Shown here in pieces: positions 34,514 to 62,628 of a DNA stretch of 64,000 bases (position 1 is the stretch's first letter; each line of letters begins with the position of its first letter). Under the pieces are notes generated by a model that was not told the DNA's origin, ran no database searches, and saw only the letters and a list, made by a program, of their open reading frames with translations. Source of the DNA: Amycolatopsis sp. DSM 110486 (GTDB lineage Bacteria > Actinomycetota > Actinomycetes > Mycobacteriales > Pseudonocardiaceae); assembly GCF_019468465.1 (NCBI RefSeq), contig NZ_CP080519.1:6255001-6319000 (forward strand). The letters are read 5' to 3'. A program made the translations under genes and the position numbers.

Positions 34514-34527
34514 TGTAACACGTTCTA
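34514..34527. promoter_or_regulatory. KstR site upstream of fadE34
   Basis: TGTAACACGTTCTA fits TnnAACnnGTTnnA completely. It lies 36 bp before the dehydrogenase start. Confidence 0.88.
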
Positions 34528-49877: not shown

Positions 49878-49891
49878 TAGAACGTGTTCCA
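49878..49891. promoter_or_regulatory. KstR site upstream of the igr operon
   Basis: TAGAACGTGTTCCA fits TnnAACnnGTTnnA completely, 32 bp before the chsE1 start and 103 bp from the hydrolase start. Confidence 0.88.
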
Positions 49892-55936: not shown

Positions 55937-56797
55937 TCAGCGCGGCACGAGCACTGTGTCGGACAGCACAGGAGCGTCGTCACGCTCCGGAGCGGTCGTG
56001 GTCACCAGCAGCCGGTCGCTCTCGCGCCACACGCGCGTGCGCAGCGGTTCGCCCGGAAAGACCACGCCGGCGAACTTCGTCCCGAACGAGCGGATCCGCG
56101 TGGGATCGCCGTCGAGGAACGCGTCGGTGAGCGCCTTCGCGACCACGCCGTAGGTGCACAGGCCGTGCAGGATCGGGCGGTCGAACCCGGCGGCTTTCGC
56201 GAACGCGGGGTCGGCGTGCAGCGGGTTGCGGTCGCCGCACAGGCGGTACAAAAGCGCCTGCTGGGGCAGCGTCGGGGTGTCGAGCACGGCGTCGGGCTCG
56301 CGCTCGGGCCACGCGAGCTTGCGCGACGGCCCGCGCTCGCCACCGAACCCGCCTTCGCCGCGGGCGAAGATGCCGGAACGAGCCGTCCACAGTGGATCGC
56401 CCTGGGTGTCGGCCGCCGTGGTCTCCTGCACGAGAACCGCGGCCTTGCCCTTGTCGAACACGTCGGTGATGCGGGTGCGCGCCACCGCTTCGCCGTCGAC
56501 GGGGATGGGCCGGTGCAGCTCGATCTCCTGCGTGCCGTGCAGCACCTTCGCGAGGTCGATGTCCACGCCCGGGAACTTGAGCGCCGGCGGGGTGAACGTG
56601 CGCAGGTTCACCGCGACCGTGGCGAACGTCGGGATCACGCGCAGGTCCTGCTCGTAGGTGTAGCGCAGCTCGCGCTCGTCGACCGGATCGGCGCCGGCGC
56701 CCAGCGCGAGGTGGTAGAGCAGCACGTCGGACGGCGTCCAGGCGAACCGCACCTCGCCGAGGTCGGCACCGATCGCGAGCGCGGGGTCGATGGGCAC
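55937..56797 (-). CDS. chsH3: MaoC-type enoyl-CoA hydratase ChsH3
   Basis: 286 residues, the length of mycobacterial Rv3538/ChsH3. Double hot-dog hydratase: the second half has GDRNPLHADPAFAKAAGFDRP and ILHGLCTYGVVAKAL, the hydratase 2 signature with catalytic Asp and His. It would hydrate the 5-carbon side-chain enoyl-CoA of cholesterol after FadE34. It follows kshB by 21 bp in the kstD operon, as Rv3538 lies next to kstD in M. tuberculosis. Confidence 0.88.
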   Translation of the reverse strand: MPIDPALAIGADLGEVRFAWTPSDVLLYHLALGAGADPVDERELRYTYEQDLRVIPTFATVAVNLRTFTPPALKFPGVDIDLAKVLHGTQEIELHRPIPVDGEAVARTRITDVFDKGKAAVLVQETTAADTQGDPLWTARSGIFARGEGGFGGERGPSRKLAWPEREPDAVLDTPTLPQQALLYRLCGDRNPLHADPAFAKAAGFDRPILHGLCTYGVVAKALTDAFLDGDPTRIRSFGTKFAGVVFPGEPLRTRVWRESDRLLVTTTAPERDDAPVLSDTVLVPR

Positions 56798-56818: not shown

Positions 56819-57841
56819 TTATTCGTAGCTGACCGACACCTCGTCCGTGACGGGTAGCGACTGGCAGGCCAGCACGATCCCGTCGGCGAGGTCTTCGGCG
56901 TCGAGCACCTCGTTGTTCAGCATCTTCACCTCACCCGACACCAGTCGGCACGCGCAAGCGCTGCACTGGCCTTCGCGGCACGAGTAGGGCGCGTCGAGGC
57001 CTTCGGCGAGCAGGTGGTCGAGCAGCTTCCGCTGTCGGGGCCAGGCGACGGTGCGGGTTTCGCCGTCGAGATCGACGGTGAGCCGGGCCGTCTCGCCGCC
57101 GTCTGCTTCGAGCTCGGGTTCGACGGAGTGCTCGAAGGGGTTCCCGGTGAGCGAGTGGAACTTCTCGACGTGGACGCGCTCACGCGGCACGCCGAGCTCG
57201 GTCAGCGCGGTCCTGGCCGCGGCCATGAACGGCGCCGGCCCGCACACGTACGCGTCGTGGCCGCGGTAGGGCGCGGCGAGGGTTTCGAGCGTGCGCGAGG
57301 ACGGCAGGCCCTGCAGGCATTCGAGCCAGTGCACGACGGTGAGCCGGTCCGGGTGCTGTGTCACTAGCTCGGCGAGCTGCCGGGCGAAGATGACGGACGC
57401 TTCGTCGCGGTTGGCATACACGAGCACGACCTGACCGGTGCCGTGCCGCAGCGCCGACTTGAGGATCGACATCACCGGCGTGATCCCGCTGCCTGCCGCG
57501 AACAGCAGGAAGTCGCCGTCCAGGGAGGACGGCACGAATACCCCGGCCGGCGGCAGCACGTCGATCTCCGCGCCGACCCGCAGCTCTTCGCACACCCAGC
57601 CGGAGCCAAAGCCCGTGCGCTTCACCGTGACCTGCACCCGGCCTTCGTGCGGCGCGCTCGACAGCGAGTAGCACCGCGCGACGGACCCCGTGCGGTCGCT
57701 GGGGATCCGCAGCGTGAGGAACTGGCCCGGCGCGTAGGCGAAGGTCGCTTGATGCTCTTCCGGGATGGCGAACACGATCGAGCGCGCGTCGGCGGTCTCA
57801 ACGATCACCTCCGCGACGGTCAGTGTCACGACGTCAGCCAC
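56819..57841 (-). CDS. kshB: KshB: reductase of 3-ketosteroid 9-alpha-hydroxylase
   Basis: 340 residues from a GTG at 57841 that overlaps the preceding stop. Order: FAD domain (RCYSLSSAP), NAD domain (LLFAAGSGITPVMSILK, YVCGPAPFM) and plant-type 2Fe-2S domain with Cys288, Cys293, Cys296 and Cys326. It passes electrons from NADH to the Rieske oxygenase KshA. Sits with kshA in the kstD operon with a small Cys-rich gene in between. The combination of FAD/NAD/2Fe-2S is diagnostic for KshB/Hmp-type reductases. Confidence 0.93.
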   Translation of the reverse strand: MADVVTLTVAEVIVETADARSIVFAIPEEHQATFAYAPGQFLTLRIPSDRTGSVARCYSLSSAPHEGRVQVTVKRTGFGSGWVCEELRVGAEIDVLPPAGVFVPSSLDGDFLLFAAGSGITPVMSILKSALRHGTGQVVLVYANRDEASVIFARQLAELVTQHPDRLTVVHWLECLQGLPSSRTLETLAAPYRGHDAYVCGPAPFMAAARTALTELGVPRERVHVEKFHSLTGNPFEHSVEPELEADGGETARLTVDLDGETRTVAWPRQRKLLDHLLAEGLDAPYSCREGQCSACACRLVSGEVKMLNNEVLDAEDLADGIVLACQSLPVTDEVSVSYE

Positions 57842-58136
57842 CGCGCACCACCTCGGCCGCGCTGCCGTCGCGGGACCGGTCGGCCACGGCGAGGCTCCCG
57901 TCACGCACGGCGTCGGTGATGCTGTCGGCCAGGTGCTCGCACGTGTCGAGCAACGCGGGATGCCGGCCGGCGGCCACGTGCGCGGCGAAAACGGGACAGC
58001 TGCGGGAAGCGTCGGTGGTCCACTGGATGCTCGTGTGCGTGAGGCTGTTCTTCTTCACCAGCACGCACGTTCCGCAGCTGCGGCACTCGTGCGGCCGCAG
58101 TCCGGCGGTGAGGAACTCCGTGACCTCGGCCGTCAC
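57834..58136 (-). CDS. Small Cys-rich protein between kshA and kshB
   Basis: 100 residues from a GTG at 58136, overlapping the kshA stop (GTGA); its stop overlaps the kshB start (GTGGCTGA). Double overlap argues for a translated gene. Five Cys (18, 21, 24, 47, 66) with C-x2-C-x2-C at the front and five His (17, 34, 53, 59, 68), enough for a metal or iron-sulfur site. I do not recognise the family. A role with KshA or KshB (cluster insertion, electron transfer) is an inference from position. No signal peptide or membrane span. Confidence 0.75.
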   Translation of the reverse strand: MTAEVTEFLTAGLRPHECRSCGTCVLVKKNSLTHTSIQWTTDASRSCPVFAAHVAAGRHPALLDTCEHLADSITDAVRDGSLAVADRSRDGSAAEVVRGG

Positions 58137-59287
58137 ACGCCTGCCTCTTCCGCCTCCGCGCGCTGCCGCGCCAGGTTCTCCGCCACCTCCGCGGTCCAAG
58201 CCTCGTTGGCCTTGCTGGTGTCGACCTCGAACTCGAAGCGGCGCGTCATGTCCTCGGTGACGTCGTCGGCGTTCACGTAGAACTGCTCGTACCAGCGGCG
58301 CAGCTGGTAGACGGGCCCGTCTTCCTCGCACAGCAACGGGTTGTCGATGCGGGTCTTGTTCTTCCAGATCTCCACGTCCTGCAGGAACCCGACGCCGATG
58401 CCCTTCGCCAGCCGCGCGGCGATCTTGTCGGCGTGCTCGTCGGAGATCCCGGGCAGCTTCTTGACCATGATCCCCCACTGCAGCACGAACGACGTCGGTG
58501 TGACGGGGTAGTGGCAGTTGATGAGCACGTTCTCGATCTCGAAGCCCTGGAACGAGTTCACCAGATGGTTGATCATGTATGACGGCCCGAAGTACGAGGC
58601 TTCCGAGTGCAGCAGGTTGTCCTCGCCGCCGTAGTTCGACGCCATGCCCATGTCGGGGCGGCCCTTGGTGTTGAGGAACTGCGTGGCGATGTGGCCTTCG
58701 AACACGTTCTTGAAGTACGTGGGGTAGGCGTAGTGGATGTAGAAGAAGTGCGCCATGTCCACGACGTTGTCGATGATCTCGCGGCAGTTGGCGTTCTCGA
58801 TGAGGATCGAGTCCCAGGTCCAGTTGCTCCACTCGTCGCTGAACGCGCCCTCGACGCGGGGGATCACCGCGTCGTCGGGCGGCGGGTTGCCTTCGGGGTC
58901 GTGCCACACGAGCAGCTGCTTGTTCTCCTCCAGCACGCGCCAAGACCGTGTCCGCGCGCGAAGCGGAACCCGCCTGGCGTAGGGGATCGAGACGCATTTG
59001 CCGGCGCCGTTCCAGCGCCAGTCGTGGAACGGGCACGCGACCTCGTCGCCCTTCACCGAGCCCTGGGTGAGGTCGCCGCCCATGTGGCGGCAGTAGCCGT
59101 CGAGCACGTTGAGCCGGCCCGACGAGTCGGCGAAGACCACGAGCTTCGTGCCGAACGCTTCGATGGCGTGGGGTTTCCCGTCGCGGAAGGTGTCGGCGAG
59201 GCCGAGGCAGTGCCAGCCGCGCGCGAAGCGCGTGGGCGGCGTGCCGACGTCGATCGTGCGGACGGTCTCTCGCGGTGGTGACGTCAC
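58133..59287 (-). CDS. kshA: KshA: Rieske oxygenase of 3-ketosteroid 9-alpha-hydroxylase
   Basis: 384 residues from a GTG at 59287 that overlaps the kstD stop. Rieske ligands Cys66, His68, Cys85 and His88 (YCRHMGGD, ACPFHDW) and the non-heme iron His180 and His185 (DMAHFFYIH) are one residue off the M. tuberculosis positions. KshA hydroxylates C9 of 3-ketosteroids; with KstD this opens ring B. Terminal Asp ligand is further downstream and probable. Second gene of the operon. Confidence 0.95.
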   Translation of the reverse strand: MTSPPRETVRTIDVGTPPTRFARGWHCLGLADTFRDGKPHAIEAFGTKLVVFADSSGRLNVLDGYCRHMGGDLTQGSVKGDEVACPFHDWRWNGAGKCVSIPYARRVPLRARTRSWRVLEENKQLLVWHDPEGNPPPDDAVIPRVEGAFSDEWSNWTWDSILIENANCREIIDNVVDMAHFFYIHYAYPTYFKNVFEGHIATQFLNTKGRPDMGMASNYGGEDNLLHSEASYFGPSYMINHLVNSFQGFEIENVLINCHYPVTPTSFVLQWGIMVKKLPGISDEHADKIAARLAKGIGVGFLQDVEIWKNKTRIDNPLLCEEDGPVYQLRRWYEQFYVNADDVTEDMTRRFEFEVDTSKANEAWTAEVAENLARQRAEAEEAGV

Positions 59288-60948
59288 TGGCTGCCTCCCG
59301 TGCCGGTCCGATCTTCGGTCGCGAGCCGCTCGGCCGCAAGGTAGCCGAACACCATCGCGGGCCCGATCGTCGCGCCGGGCCCGGCGTAGGTGCGGCCCAT
59401 CACGGCCGCGCTGGTGTTGCCCGCCGCGTAGAGCCCGGGGATGATCGAGCCGTCTTCGCGCAGCACGCGGGCGTGCTCGTCGGTGCGCAGCCCGCCCTTG
59501 GTGCCCAGGTCGCCGGGCACGATCTTCACAGCGTAGAACGGCGGTTTGGCCAGCGGGCCGAGGCTGGGGTTGGGGTGGTTGCGCGGGTCGCCGTAGTAGT
59601 GGTCGTAGGCGCTTCGCCCGCGGTGGAAGTCTTCGTCGACGCCGGTGCGGGCGAAGCCGTTGAAGCGTTCGACGGTGCTTCGCAGGTCTTCGGCAGGTAC
59701 GTCGATGCTGGCGGCCAGCTCTTCGATCGTCGGTGCCTTCGCGACGATGCCGGCTTTGTACCAACGGCCGGGCAGGGGCTGGCGCGGGCCGATGCCGGTG
59801 AACAGGTAGCGGTCCTTGTAGCGCTGGTCGAACACGAGCCACGTGGGGATGTGCTCGGCGGGGCCGTCGCCTTCGCCGTACATCGCGTGGACGGCTTCGA
59901 CGTAGGGCGCGGACTCGTTGACGAACCGGGCACCTCGCGCGTTGACCATGAGGGAGCCGGGCCGCGACCGCTCGGCGAGGGCGAACCACGGGCCGCCGGT
60001 GAGCGGGATCGACGGGCCCCACCACGCGTCGTTCATGAGGTCGGTGGCCGCGCCGAGCTTCAGGCCGGCCGTGATGCCGTCGCCGGTGTTGGCGGCGGCG
60101 CCCACGGTCCACTCGGTGCCGATCGGGGCGCGCTGGTACTTGGTGCGCATCTCCTCGTTGTGCTCGAAGCCGCCGCACGCGAGCAGCACGCCGAGGCGGG
60201 CGTGGAAGACGGTGCCGGTGGTTCGGACGCCGGTGACGCGGCCGTTTTCGGTGGTCAGCTCGACGAGCGGGGTGTCGAGAAGGACGTCGACGCCGGCACG
60301 CCTGAGCCCCAGGAAAAGCCCGGCCGCAAGCGCTTGCCCCATGGCGATCGGCTGCTGCCCGCGGAGCCTCCCCTCGAGCCAGCGCGCGCCGAGCTTGGCA
60401 ACGCGGGCGAGGCCGCGGGGGTGGCGGGCGAGCAGGCTCAGCCAGCGGTAGTCCGACTGGGTGATCGGGACGCCGAGCGGCGGCGCGCTGTACGGCGGCT
60501 CCAGGTGAGCCAGGTCGTCGCCCAGGAGCTTCGCGTCGAGCGGCTTCGGTTCGACGGAGCGGCCTGCGGCGCGTCCGCCGGGGGCTTCGGGGTGGTAGTC
60601 GCTGTAGTCCGGCACCCAGCGGAACTCGAGTGGGGTGTGCCGCGTGATGAGCTCCAGGACCTCGGGCCCGTGCGCCAGGAACGCCTCGCGGTTGGCCTCG
60701 GGCACGACGTCGCCGACGATCGCGGCCAGGTACTCGCGGGCTTTGTCCGGGGTGTCGTCGATGCCGGCTGCCTTGAGCGCATGGTTGCCGGGGAGCCAGA
60801 CGCCGCCGCCTGACCGGGCCGTCGACCCGCCGAAGCAGGCCGCCTTCTCCAGCACGACCACGCTGAGGCCCCGGCGGGCGGCGGCGAGCGCGGCGGTCAT
60901 CCCGGCGGCGCCGCTGCCGGCGACCACCACGTCGTACTCGTTCGCCAT
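59284..60948 (-). CDS. kstD: 3-ketosteroid delta-1-dehydrogenase KstD
   Basis: 554 residues from the ATG at 60948. FAD-binding GSGAAGMTAALAAARRG at the N-terminus and the KstD C-terminal signature GRTYAGPGATIGP (Tyr521). Length resembles mycobacterial KstD (563). It dehydrogenates C1-C2 of 3-ketosteroids, producing the substrate or product that KshA then opens. First gene of a six-gene operon running leftwards to the riboflavin kinase. A near-consensus KstR box (60960-60973) lies 11 bp before the start. Confidence 0.93.
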   Translation of the reverse strand: MANEYDVVVAGSGAAGMTAALAAARRGLSVVVLEKAACFGGSTARSGGGVWLPGNHALKAAGIDDTPDKAREYLAAIVGDVVPEANREAFLAHGPEVLELITRHTPLEFRWVPDYSDYHPEAPGGRAAGRSVEPKPLDAKLLGDDLAHLEPPYSAPPLGVPITQSDYRWLSLLARHPRGLARVAKLGARWLEGRLRGQQPIAMGQALAAGLFLGLRRAGVDVLLDTPLVELTTENGRVTGVRTTGTVFHARLGVLLACGGFEHNEEMRTKYQRAPIGTEWTVGAAANTGDGITAGLKLGAATDLMNDAWWGPSIPLTGGPWFALAERSRPGSLMVNARGARFVNESAPYVEAVHAMYGEGDGPAEHIPTWLVFDQRYKDRYLFTGIGPRQPLPGRWYKAGIVAKAPTIEELAASIDVPAEDLRSTVERFNGFARTGVDEDFHRGRSAYDHYYGDPRNHPNPSLGPLAKPPFYAVKIVPGDLGTKGGLRTDEHARVLREDGSIIPGLYAAGNTSAAVMGRTYAGPGATIGPAMVFGYLAAERLATEDRTGTGGSQ

Positions 60949-60959
60949 GCCACCTCACA

Positions 60960-60973
60960 TGTAACGTGTTATC
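60960..60973. promoter_or_regulatory. KstR site upstream of kstD
   Basis: On the kstD strand the site reads GATAACACGTTACA; it matches TnnAACnnGTTnnA at all but the first fixed base. It is 11 bp before the start. Confidence 0.75.
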
Positions 60974-61016: not shown

Positions 61017-61030
61017 GAGAACGTGTTCCA
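61017..61030. promoter_or_regulatory. KstR site upstream of the FAD dehydrogenase
   Basis: GAGAACGTGTTCCA, one mismatch to TnnAACnnGTTnnA, followed by GTTCT. It is 8 or 17 bp before the possible starts and 43 bp from the kstD box. Confidence 0.78.
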
Positions 61031-61047: not shown

Positions 61048-62628
61048 ATGGACGAGCTCGTGGCAGACGTCGTCGTGATCGGAGCCGGCGCGGCCGGCGC
61101 GTGCGCGGCCATCGAGGCCGCCGACGCGGGGGCCGAGGTGCTGCTCCTCGACCGGTTTTCGGGTGGTGGTGCGAGCCGGGTGAGCGGTGGCGTCGTCTAC
61201 GCCGGGGGCGGCACTTCGCAGCAGCTCGACGCCGGGATTTCCGACAGCGTCGACGCGATGTTCGAGTACCTCCGGCTGGAGACCGACGGGGTCGTGTCGT
61301 CGCGGACGTTGCGGCGGTTCTGCGAGACGAGCCCGGAGATGATCCGGTGGCTCGAGGGGCTGGGGGTGCCGTTCGAGGGGAGTTTGTGCCCGTACAAGAC
61401 GTCGTATCCCAGCAACGCGCATTATCTGTACTACTCCGGGAGTGAGGCGTCGGGCGGGTTCCGGGACGCGGCCGCGCCGGCACCGCGCGGGCATCGCGTG
61501 AAGGGGCCGGGGACGTCGGGGAAGCTACTGATGGCGCGGTTGCTCGCGGCGGCGCGGGAGCGTGGGGTGCGGGTGGTGCCGCAGACCCGGGCGCGGAGTC
61601 TCGTCGTGGACGCTTCTGGTGCGGTCACGGGGGTTGTCGCGGACAGCTTGGCTCCTTCTTGGGCGCGGCGGCGGCATGCGGTGCTGGCTTCGTACGCCGC
61701 GAAGCCGGGGATTTATGTGCCACCGTTTCGACGCTCGTTGCACCGGCGCGTGGAGCGGCTGGAAGAGCGGTGTTCGCGTGAGGTGCGGATCGTGGCGCGC
61801 CGGGGTGTGGTGCTCGCGGCGGGCGGGTTCATCGCGAATCGTGAGCTGGTGCGGCAGCATGCACCGGCGTATCGCGGCGGGCTCGTGCTGGGAACTTCGG
61901 CCGACGACGGTTCGGGTATCGAGCTGGGCTTGTCGGTGGGCGGCCGGGTCGCGGAGATGGGCCGGATCTCGGCGTGGCGGTTCCTCACGCCGCCGGCCGC
62001 GTTCCTCGGTGGCCTGCTCGTGGACGTCGACGGGCGGCGGATCATCGACGAATCCCGTTACGGCGCGGCGATCGGCGAGCGGATGATCTCCGCGCACGGC
62101 GGACGGGGCTGGCTGCTCGTCGACGAGCCGGTGGTTGCCGAGGCTCGGCGGGACGGGCGCAAGCAGGGGCAGTGGTTCGCGTGGCTGCAGCTGCGGTACC
62201 TGCTCGGCCGCGGGCGCGTCACGGGTGCTTCCTTGGAGGAAGTCGCGCGGCGGGCCGGTGTCGACCCGGAGGGTTTGCGGGAGACGCATGCCGCGTATCG
62301 GCGAGGTCCGGATCCGCTGGGGAAGCCCGCGGAGTTCGCACGGCCGTTGGACACTCCGCCGTTTTCGCTGATCGACGTGTCGGTGAAGCCGAGCCTCGGC
62401 TACCCGTGCCCGATGCTGACGCTGGGCGGGCTCGTGGTCGACGAGGACACGGGCGAGGTGGCCGGCGTTCGCGGTCTGTACGCGGCAGGGCGGACGGCCG
62501 TGGGAATCTGTTCCAGGTCCTACGTGAGCGGTCTGTCGCTGGCCGACTGCGTGTTTTCCGGTCGCCGGGCGGGGAAGAGTAGCGCCTTGGAATCCGATCG
62601 CGTCGACAAAAACGAGAACGTGTTCTAG
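61048..62628 (+). CDS. FAD-binding dehydrogenase (KstD/fumarate reductase family)
   Basis: 526 residues from the ATG at 61048 (a GTG at 61039 adds three). N-terminal dinucleotide fold VVVIGAGAAGACAAIEAADAGAEVLLLD, then GGASRVSGGVVYAGGG, and the C-terminal RGLYAAGRTAVGICSRSYVSGLSLADCV. It is like KstD in fold but only distantly related to the KstD gene next door. KstR-type promoter and position suggest a steroid-ring dehydrogenase such as a delta-4-dehydrogenase, but this is not proven. Its last codons overlap the hsaA promoter box. Confidence 0.82.
   Translation: MDELVADVVVIGAGAAGACAAIEAADAGAEVLLLDRFSGGGASRVSGGVVYAGGGTSQQLDAGISDSVDAMFEYLRLETDGVVSSRTLRRFCETSPEMIRWLEGLGVPFEGSLCPYKTSYPSNAHYLYYSGSEASGGFRDAAAPAPRGHRVKGPGTSGKLLMARLLAAARERGVRVVPQTRARSLVVDASGAVTGVVADSLAPSWARRRHAVLASYAAKPGIYVPPFRRSLHRRVERLEERCSREVRIVARRGVVLAAGGFIANRELVRQHAPAYRGGLVLGTSADDGSGIELGLSVGGRVAEMGRISAWRFLTPPAAFLGGLLVDVDGRRIIDESRYGAAIGERMISAHGGRGWLLVDEPVVAEARRDGRKQGQWFAWLQLRYLLGRGRVTGASLEEVARRAGVDPEGLRETHAAYRRGPDPLGKPAEFARPLDTPPFSLIDVSVKPSLGYPCPMLTLGGLVVDEDTGEVAGVRGLYAAGRTAVGICSRSYVSGLSLADCVFSGRRAGKSSALESDRVDKNENVF
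62614..62627. promoter_or_regulatory. KstR site upstream of hsaA, inside the previous gene's end
   Basis: GAGAACGTGTTCTA, one mismatch to TnnAACnnGTTnnA, 31 bp before hsaA. It encodes the last residues (ENVF and most of the stop codon) of the upstream dehydrogenase. Confidence 0.78.

Follow-up and report, generated by a model that had tools for sequence, protein, structure and literature searches.

KshA, the oxygenase of 3-ketosteroid 9α-hydroxylase (KSH), has a key role in the bacterial degradation of steroids; it serves in steroid manufacture and is under study as a target for drugs. The first 9α-hydroxylase to be studied (Nocardia, 1982) is described in a review as a three-protein system, with genes named for only two components, and genes of a two-component system were found later (PMC4064121). 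Purified KshA and KshB are active (PMC4064121), and both proteins were needed for reconstitution of KSH (PMC6153880). Here, a stretch of 64,000 nucleotides from Amycolatopsis sp. DSM 110486 (the window; contig NZ_CP080519.1, positions 6,255,001 to 6,319,000, forward strand) was analyzed, in which an open reading frame (ORF) of 100 codons is located between kshA and kshB. The ORF is a real gene belonging to an undescribed, selected protein family characterized by a CxxC...C...C spacing plus a histidine at position 34, and it accompanies kshA rather than kshB.

The gene order on the minus strand is kstD, kshA, ORF, kshB and a MaoC-like gene (positions within the window):

57834..58136, minus strand: four-Cys ORF, 100 amino acids, GTG start, TGA stop (translation; homologue search)
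58133..59287, minus strand: kshA, Rieske 3-ketosteroid 9α-hydroxylase oxygenase (PF19298, 1.5e-93; PF00355 Rieske, 4.3e-21)
56819..57841, minus strand: kshB, FAD/NAD/[2Fe-2S] reductase (PF00111 Fer2, PF00175, PF00970; alternative start 57829)
59284..60948, minus strand: kstD, 3-oxosteroid 1-dehydrogenase, first in the run (NF005882, 947.8 bits, cut-off 788)
55937..56797, minus strand: MaoC-like hydratase, at the end of the gene run as analyzed (PF01575, PF22622)

The domain matches agree with the identities of kshA and kshB proposed in an earlier reading of the sequence alone (the sequence-only reading). KshB is PaaE-like, yet scored below the cut-off of the PaaE model. The same reading had described the ORF as coupled to both neighbours. 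On the kshA side this is correct, the GTG of the ORF and the TGA of kshA sharing four nucleotides (GTGA), and the ORF probably lies on one mRNA with kshA. KstD and kshA overlap by four nucleotides as well. On the kshB side the coupling stands, whereas the proposed overlap exists only if kshB starts with the GTG at 57841, which overlaps the TGA of the ORF, and not with the GTG at 57829, four nucleotides past this TGA. The genome of Amycolatopsis sp. DSM 110486 contains one match to the ORF and one to KshA (E ≤ 1e-20). The nearest named protein relatives, too, give the window the look of Amycolatopsis DNA.

The translated protein possesses, as had been counted before, five cysteines (Cys18, 21, 24, 47 and 66) and five histidines (His16, 34, 53, 59 and 68), and in line with the earlier statement that no family was recognizable, a Pfam/NCBIfam scan of the window protein revealed no model at its cut-off. 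A single-sequence search yielded 151 homologues at E ≤ 1e-3, while profiles built from 28 members and from 13 diverse members matched 883 of 7994 and 2698 of 7997 scored candidates, respectively (120 listed in each case). From 253 listed proteins a 90% redundancy filter left 159, 142 of which were aligned with the window protein. Since the searches were seeded with four-Cys sequences, some bias of this 143-member alignment is possible. Cys18, Cys21, Cys47, Cys66, Gly12, Val25, Thr35 and Gln38 are present in all 143 members, Trp39 in 142 and His34 in 141. By contrast, residue 24 is a cysteine in only 34 members and the four other histidines vary, so that the C-x2-C-x2-C motif with five histidines, on which the sequence-only reading had focused, is not the hallmark of the family. 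The conserved elements are as follows:

58074..58085, minus strand: CxxC knuckle, Cys18 and Cys21, each 143/143 (alignment)
58020..58055, minus strand: signature K28-K29-x4-H34-T35-S36-I37-Q38-W39 (alignment; modelled strand 35-39)
57996..57998, minus strand: Cys47, 143/143, directly before modelled helix 48-55 (alignment, model)
57939..57941, minus strand: Cys66, 143/143, directly before modelled helix 67-79 (alignment, model)

In the family as a whole the signature takes the form of a KK-x4-HTS[IV]QW strand. Purifying selection, whose absence had been named beforehand as an argument against the ORF, is evident from dN/dS values well below 1: over a core of 75-78 codons, comparisons with 11 relatives gave nonsynonymous divergence (dN) of 0.17-0.33, synonymous divergence (dS) of 0.51-0.89 and pairwise ratios of about 0.26-0.44. 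Mycobacterial-type members are longer than the window protein (their true starts are not settled), and at five mycobacterial-type loci (L040, L041, L043-L045), not at L042, the N-terminal part contains a His/Asp-rich stretch.

The association of the ORF with kshA was examined in four genome samples (family, order, class and phylum), which overlap and contain related genomes, so that Fisher significance values are only indicative. For the larger samples only the best first-look candidates were scored and weak matches may be missed; the ORF and KshA searches of each level were taken to cover the same genomes, as handles and totals agree, and genomes without a match are mostly unlisted for the class and phylum samples. 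In the family sample the ORF (E ≤ 1e-3) was detected in 31 of 60 genomes and KshA (E ≤ 1e-20) in the same 31, the other 29 having neither. In 31/31 cases the ORF directly follows kshA in the same orientation, with gaps of -6 to 166 nucleotides; thus, close relatives with a ksh locus that lack the ORF, the second finding named in advance as adverse, did not turn up. One further weak match in this sample (G007, 29% identity) was read as another Rieske oxygenase. At order level the ORF was present in 49 of 150 genomes and KshA, at 1e-60, in the same 49 (24/75 + 25/75), with 60 of 63 ORF matches directly downstream of kshA (gap -3 to 222 nucleotides). Both proteins occurred in the same 37 of 296 genomes of the class sample, where 54 of 57 ORF matches directly follow kshA, and in the same 5 of 149 genomes of the phylum sample. 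Genera with a match numbered 22/46 (family), 18/55 (order), 12/115 (class) and 3/119 (phylum). No genome with the ORF and without KshA, or the reverse, was found in any of the four samples, and the ORF is present in every KshA-bearing actinobacterial genome among them. On one 5.09-Mb contig (G109:C1), equal-scoring copies of KshA plus ORF were located near 9 kb and near 5.086 Mb, i.e. at both ends, a duplication which is probably the terminal overlap of an unclosed circle.

A separate collection of named genomes was searched as well. Among the best 80 of 423 confirmed relatives, nearly all from Mycobacterium or Mycolicibacterium, KshA is encoded directly upstream of the ORF in 79; at the exception (L114) the ORF locus starts 151 bases from a contig end. 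No KshB was seen within up to 5 kb on each side at these 80 loci. At another 45 loci (L001-L045, 1.5 kb on each side, some genomes represented twice) KshB was present at 36. Because the ORF follows kshA in 79 of 80 loci where KshB is not visible, it tracks the oxygenase and not the reductase.

The most plausible explanation, to which we assign a probability of roughly 45%, is that the ORF product is an accessory protein dedicated to KshA, which would bind metal, contact the oxygenase and help to build or protect its iron centres. It would be made from the kshA mRNA straight after KshA. Cys18, Cys21, Cys47 and Cys66 may form a single metal site, most likely for zinc and possibly for iron, around which the fold would wrap. 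In the cell, the protein might then dock on the nascent KshA chain, the trimer or the Rieske domain and assist KshA in acquiring or retaining the mononuclear iron and the labile Rieske [2Fe-2S] cluster, being helpful while standing outside the catalytic electron path. The sequence-only reading had likewise thought of inserting or protecting the Rieske cluster or of carrying electrons, and such functions are plausible. Three points led to this preference: the gene accompanies the oxygenase rather than the reductase, KshA is a fragile protein, and KshA and KshB function in the absence of the ORF product. The exact co-occurrence with KshA, the four invariant cysteines with their modelled positions, the weak zinc-ribbon resemblance of one knuckle and the His/Asp-rich stretch of five mycobacterial-type members also count in its favour. 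With respect to fragility, the activity of KshA from one species was greatly reduced by purification, KshA from another was active only if purified together with KshB, and for a third anaerobic purification was used (PMC4064121). In Escherichia coli, KSH of Mycobacterium neoaurum was found mainly in inclusion bodies and showed no activity; the enzyme was described as "very unstable" and is inhibited by most metal ions (PMC4967059).

Several observations weigh against this explanation. KshA and KshB of M. neoaurum were active without the ORF in Bacillus subtilis (0.57 U/mg in extract, 2.41 U/mg after co-purification), and active purified proteins have been described elsewhere too (PMC4967059, PMC4064121). 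Any help given by the ORF product would hence be conditional, and in vitro it is not obligatory. Zn2+ was the strongest inhibitor of the purified M. neoaurum enzyme (PMC4967059). Moreover, no ORF adjoins 13 of the 73 KshA matches at order level (a contig-end fragment among them) or 13 of the 67 at class level, and a comparison of paired and unpaired KshA proteins identified no residue that separated the two groups by the criterion applied. In Rhodococcus-type clusters some 4-10 kb separate the ORF from kshA, and it is found close to kstD, to an HsaB-like reductase or to other flavoenzymes. Finally, ten KshA-bearing plasmid records were searched with the profile at E ≤ 0.1, covering those replicons only. 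None of the five proteobacterial records (four strains) contained the ORF, and of the five actinobacterial ones three did, the plasmids of Rhodococcus qingshengii and Prescottella being without it.

The unpaired KshA copies all occur in genomes that also have a paired kshA-ORF copy. When the 1.5 kb downstream of 18 unpaired KshA loci were scanned for the pattern of the family signature, no partner was found. In a KshA tree of 106 rows (84 paired, 22 unpaired, left after removal of near-copies from 230), whose several long branches make the deep forks unsure, the paired/unpaired label needs 7 changes, compared to 20.3 in shuffles. The tree contains a clade of second KshA proteins without an adjacent ORF (L182, L188, L197, L216, L217, L218 and L221; seven rows with support 91/95, of which six belong to family f8). 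A KstD-like gene is located just upstream of the second-type KshA at L216, L220 (the place of L188) and L221.

In a wider set of plasmid records, a KshA-like match (1e-40) was found in 29 and the ORF (0.01) in five, all among those 29. Because the proteobacterial KshA records are without the ORF, it looks like an actinobacterial addition rather than something that the chemistry of KshA itself requires, with proteobacteria sampled through plasmid records. At three proteobacterial loci the gene following kshA encodes, judging from the translations, a SnoaL-like protein, a cold-shock protein or an SDR. The 141-residue SnoaL-like hypothetical protein encoded after KshA in Sphingobium (L205:7261-7686) is perhaps another KshA neighbour. 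The Rhodococcus erythropolis plasmid has a second, weak ORF match with an internal stop (1.6e-4), and the Prescottella sp. R16 plasmid (L231) carries two KshA-like copies with the same protein accessions in opposite orientation, each with a divergent TetR gene. On an 18.7-kb circular plasmid record of Tsukamurella tyrosinosolvens (L230, NZ_LR134448.1), kstD, kshA, ORF, kshB and MaoC appear in the order of the window together with hsaA. Either a steroid module that is mobile or an assembly error would account for this record.

The position of the few distant ORFs also bears on another conceivable role, that of a scaffold or small regulatory subunit of the steroid pathway which would connect KstD and KshA with enzymes encoded nearby or modulate uncoupling, its tie to KshA being mainly positional. 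KstD and KshA catalyze successive steps on the same ring system. The distant ORFs of two genomes (G079 and G116), of pRHL1 and of the R. erythropolis plasmid all belong to steroid-type clusters, at a distance of about 4-10 kb from a KshA; there, one adjoins kstD (L210), one is separated from kstD by a single small SnoaL-like gene (L208), one has an HsaB-like flavin reductase on one side and a hydrolase on the other (L202) and two are near other flavoenzymes (L203, L209); names of neighbours other than KstD and KshA stem from the translations or the record annotation. However, such placements are rare, amounting to 3 of 63 ORF matches in the order sample and the same three of 57 in the class sample, all from G079 and G116. 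A scaffold is therefore considered improbable.

The main rival to an accessory role is that the ORF product is a small iron or iron-sulphur protein which would supply KshA with electrons taken from KshB or a different reductase, and thus the third Nocardia protein of 1982. The description of that system as a three-protein enzyme (PMC4064121) and the four invariant cysteines are in favour of this idea, as is the increased KshA turnover obtained with a free, non-native ferredoxin and a non-native reductase (PMC10992505). On the other hand, KshB already holds a [2Fe-2S] ferredoxin domain, and the sufficiency of purified KshA and KshB speaks against an obligatory electron carrier (PMC4064121). The domain tests point in the same direction, as no ferredoxin, Rieske or rubredoxin Pfam model reached 0.01 in any of the 143 members. 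Bacterial-type ferredoxins are recognized by a CxxCxxC motif or a variant of it plus CP, rubredoxins by two CxxC knuckles, and the ferredoxin-like features are not conserved in the family. A [4Fe-4S]/[3Fe-4S] ferredoxin was rejected in view of the variable Cys24 and a CP that is missing in several members of the diverse alignment; for Fer4-type models, the best match of the window protein reached 12.2 bits against a cut-off of 24. A plant-type or Rieske-type [2Fe-2S] ferredoxin was discarded since no Fer2 or Rieske match at E ≤ 0.01 was obtained, and a rubredoxin since the family has one conserved CxxC instead of two (a single member matched a rubrerythrin-like NCBIfam model, 0.008). The UniRef name "Ferredoxin" of several members is a database label and not evidence. 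Electron transfer is accordingly the weaker proposal compared to assembly or protection, and we regard it as unlikely, but it would resolve the discrepancy of 1982. Its fullest form, a natively three-protein KSH in which the ORF product holds an iron or iron-sulphur centre by its four cysteines in a new fold and was overlooked since KshA and KshB stay active alone, is somewhat more doubtful still.

The secondary-structure model places the CxxC in a beta turn or hairpin and Cys47 and Cys66 just ahead of helices, a layout that suits a four-Cys metal site and is no proof of one. The zinc-ribbon model PF03604 weakly matches the one knuckle in 10 of 143 members (E ≤ 0.01, best 0.00069). Four-Cys knuckles might also indicate a metal- or redox-sensing regulator of steroid genes, i.e. 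a zinc-finger-like DNA- or RNA-binding protein, all the more as sequence matches in the PDB were to eukaryotic zinc fingers. These matches are weak, though, with a best single-sequence value of 0.00044, and fade with the profile (best 0.018), and the ORF overlaps structural genes of the run, so that a regulatory function has very little probability.

In the 90-nucleotide gap upstream of kstD, two sites resemble the KstR consensus:

60960..60973, plus strand: KstR-like palindrome upstream of kstD, one mismatch
61017..61030, plus strand: another KstR-like palindrome in this gap, likewise with one mismatch

With this consensus the window contains 17 palindromes with at most one mismatch (3.8 expected; 17 was reached in 0 of 100 shuffles), including perfect ones at 49878-49891 and 34514-34527 and a further one-mismatch site at 62614-62627, which suggests a KstR-type steroid regulon.

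Should the ORF product assist KshA as proposed, KSH, well studied as a two-part enzyme, may include a further partner that has been overlooked in the steroid-degrading actinobacteria covered here. The recombinant KSH work cited relies on two genes and describes the enzyme as fragile. This fragility might in part reflect the absence of a third gene that is tied to kshA across actinobacteria, and such a gene could settle the old discrepancy over the number of KSH components. In addition, the family would offer a testable function for Rv3527 of Mycobacterium tuberculosis, a hypothetical protein whose necessity for survival in macrophages and mice is marked as proven (note a of PMC6429209). Rv3526 and Rv3527 are among the genes missing from Mycobacterium leprae (PMC6429209), and Rv3527 is listed with genes repressed under hypoxia and induced by reaeration (PMC2905415) as well as in a table of 3′ untranslated regions (PMC3207917). 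In Nocardioides simplex, the kshA/kshB tags KR76_14170/14160 and KR76_27070/27080 (PMC7807495) allow for a single intervening gene in each case, provided that tags step in fives. A described function for Rv3527 or a KshA-linked small protein was not found in the open-access collection searched, in which most subscription papers are missing.

Compared to known systems, the locus is closest to the two-component KshAB hydroxylase, with which it shares the gene run, found both in the window and on the Tsukamurella record, and the exact co-occurrence of ORF and KshA in the samples. It differs in that the described system has no third protein, KshA and KshB being the sole gene products named in the excerpts of PMC4064121 and PMC6153880. 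In the three-component 9α-hydroxylase of Nocardia sp. M117 (Strijewski 1982, as described in PMC4064121), the ORF product would fit as a small third protein beside reductase and oxygenase, although an iron-sulphur cluster in it is hypothetical. Rv3527 directly follows kshA (Rv3526) by locus number, as mycobacterial-type members of the family follow kshA, and is a probable member judging from gene order. Zinc-ribbon proteins (PF03604, RPAB4 type) likewise have a CxxC knuckle in a beta hairpin, although the matches are weak and the other two cysteines of the ORF product are single, ahead of two modelled helices, instead of forming a second CxxC. With the ferredoxins of class II/III Rieske oxygenases the ORF product has in common that a small Cys-rich protein is encoded together with a Rieske oxygenase, while its family differs in cysteine spacing and is matched by none of the Fer2, Fer4 and Rieske models at 0.01.
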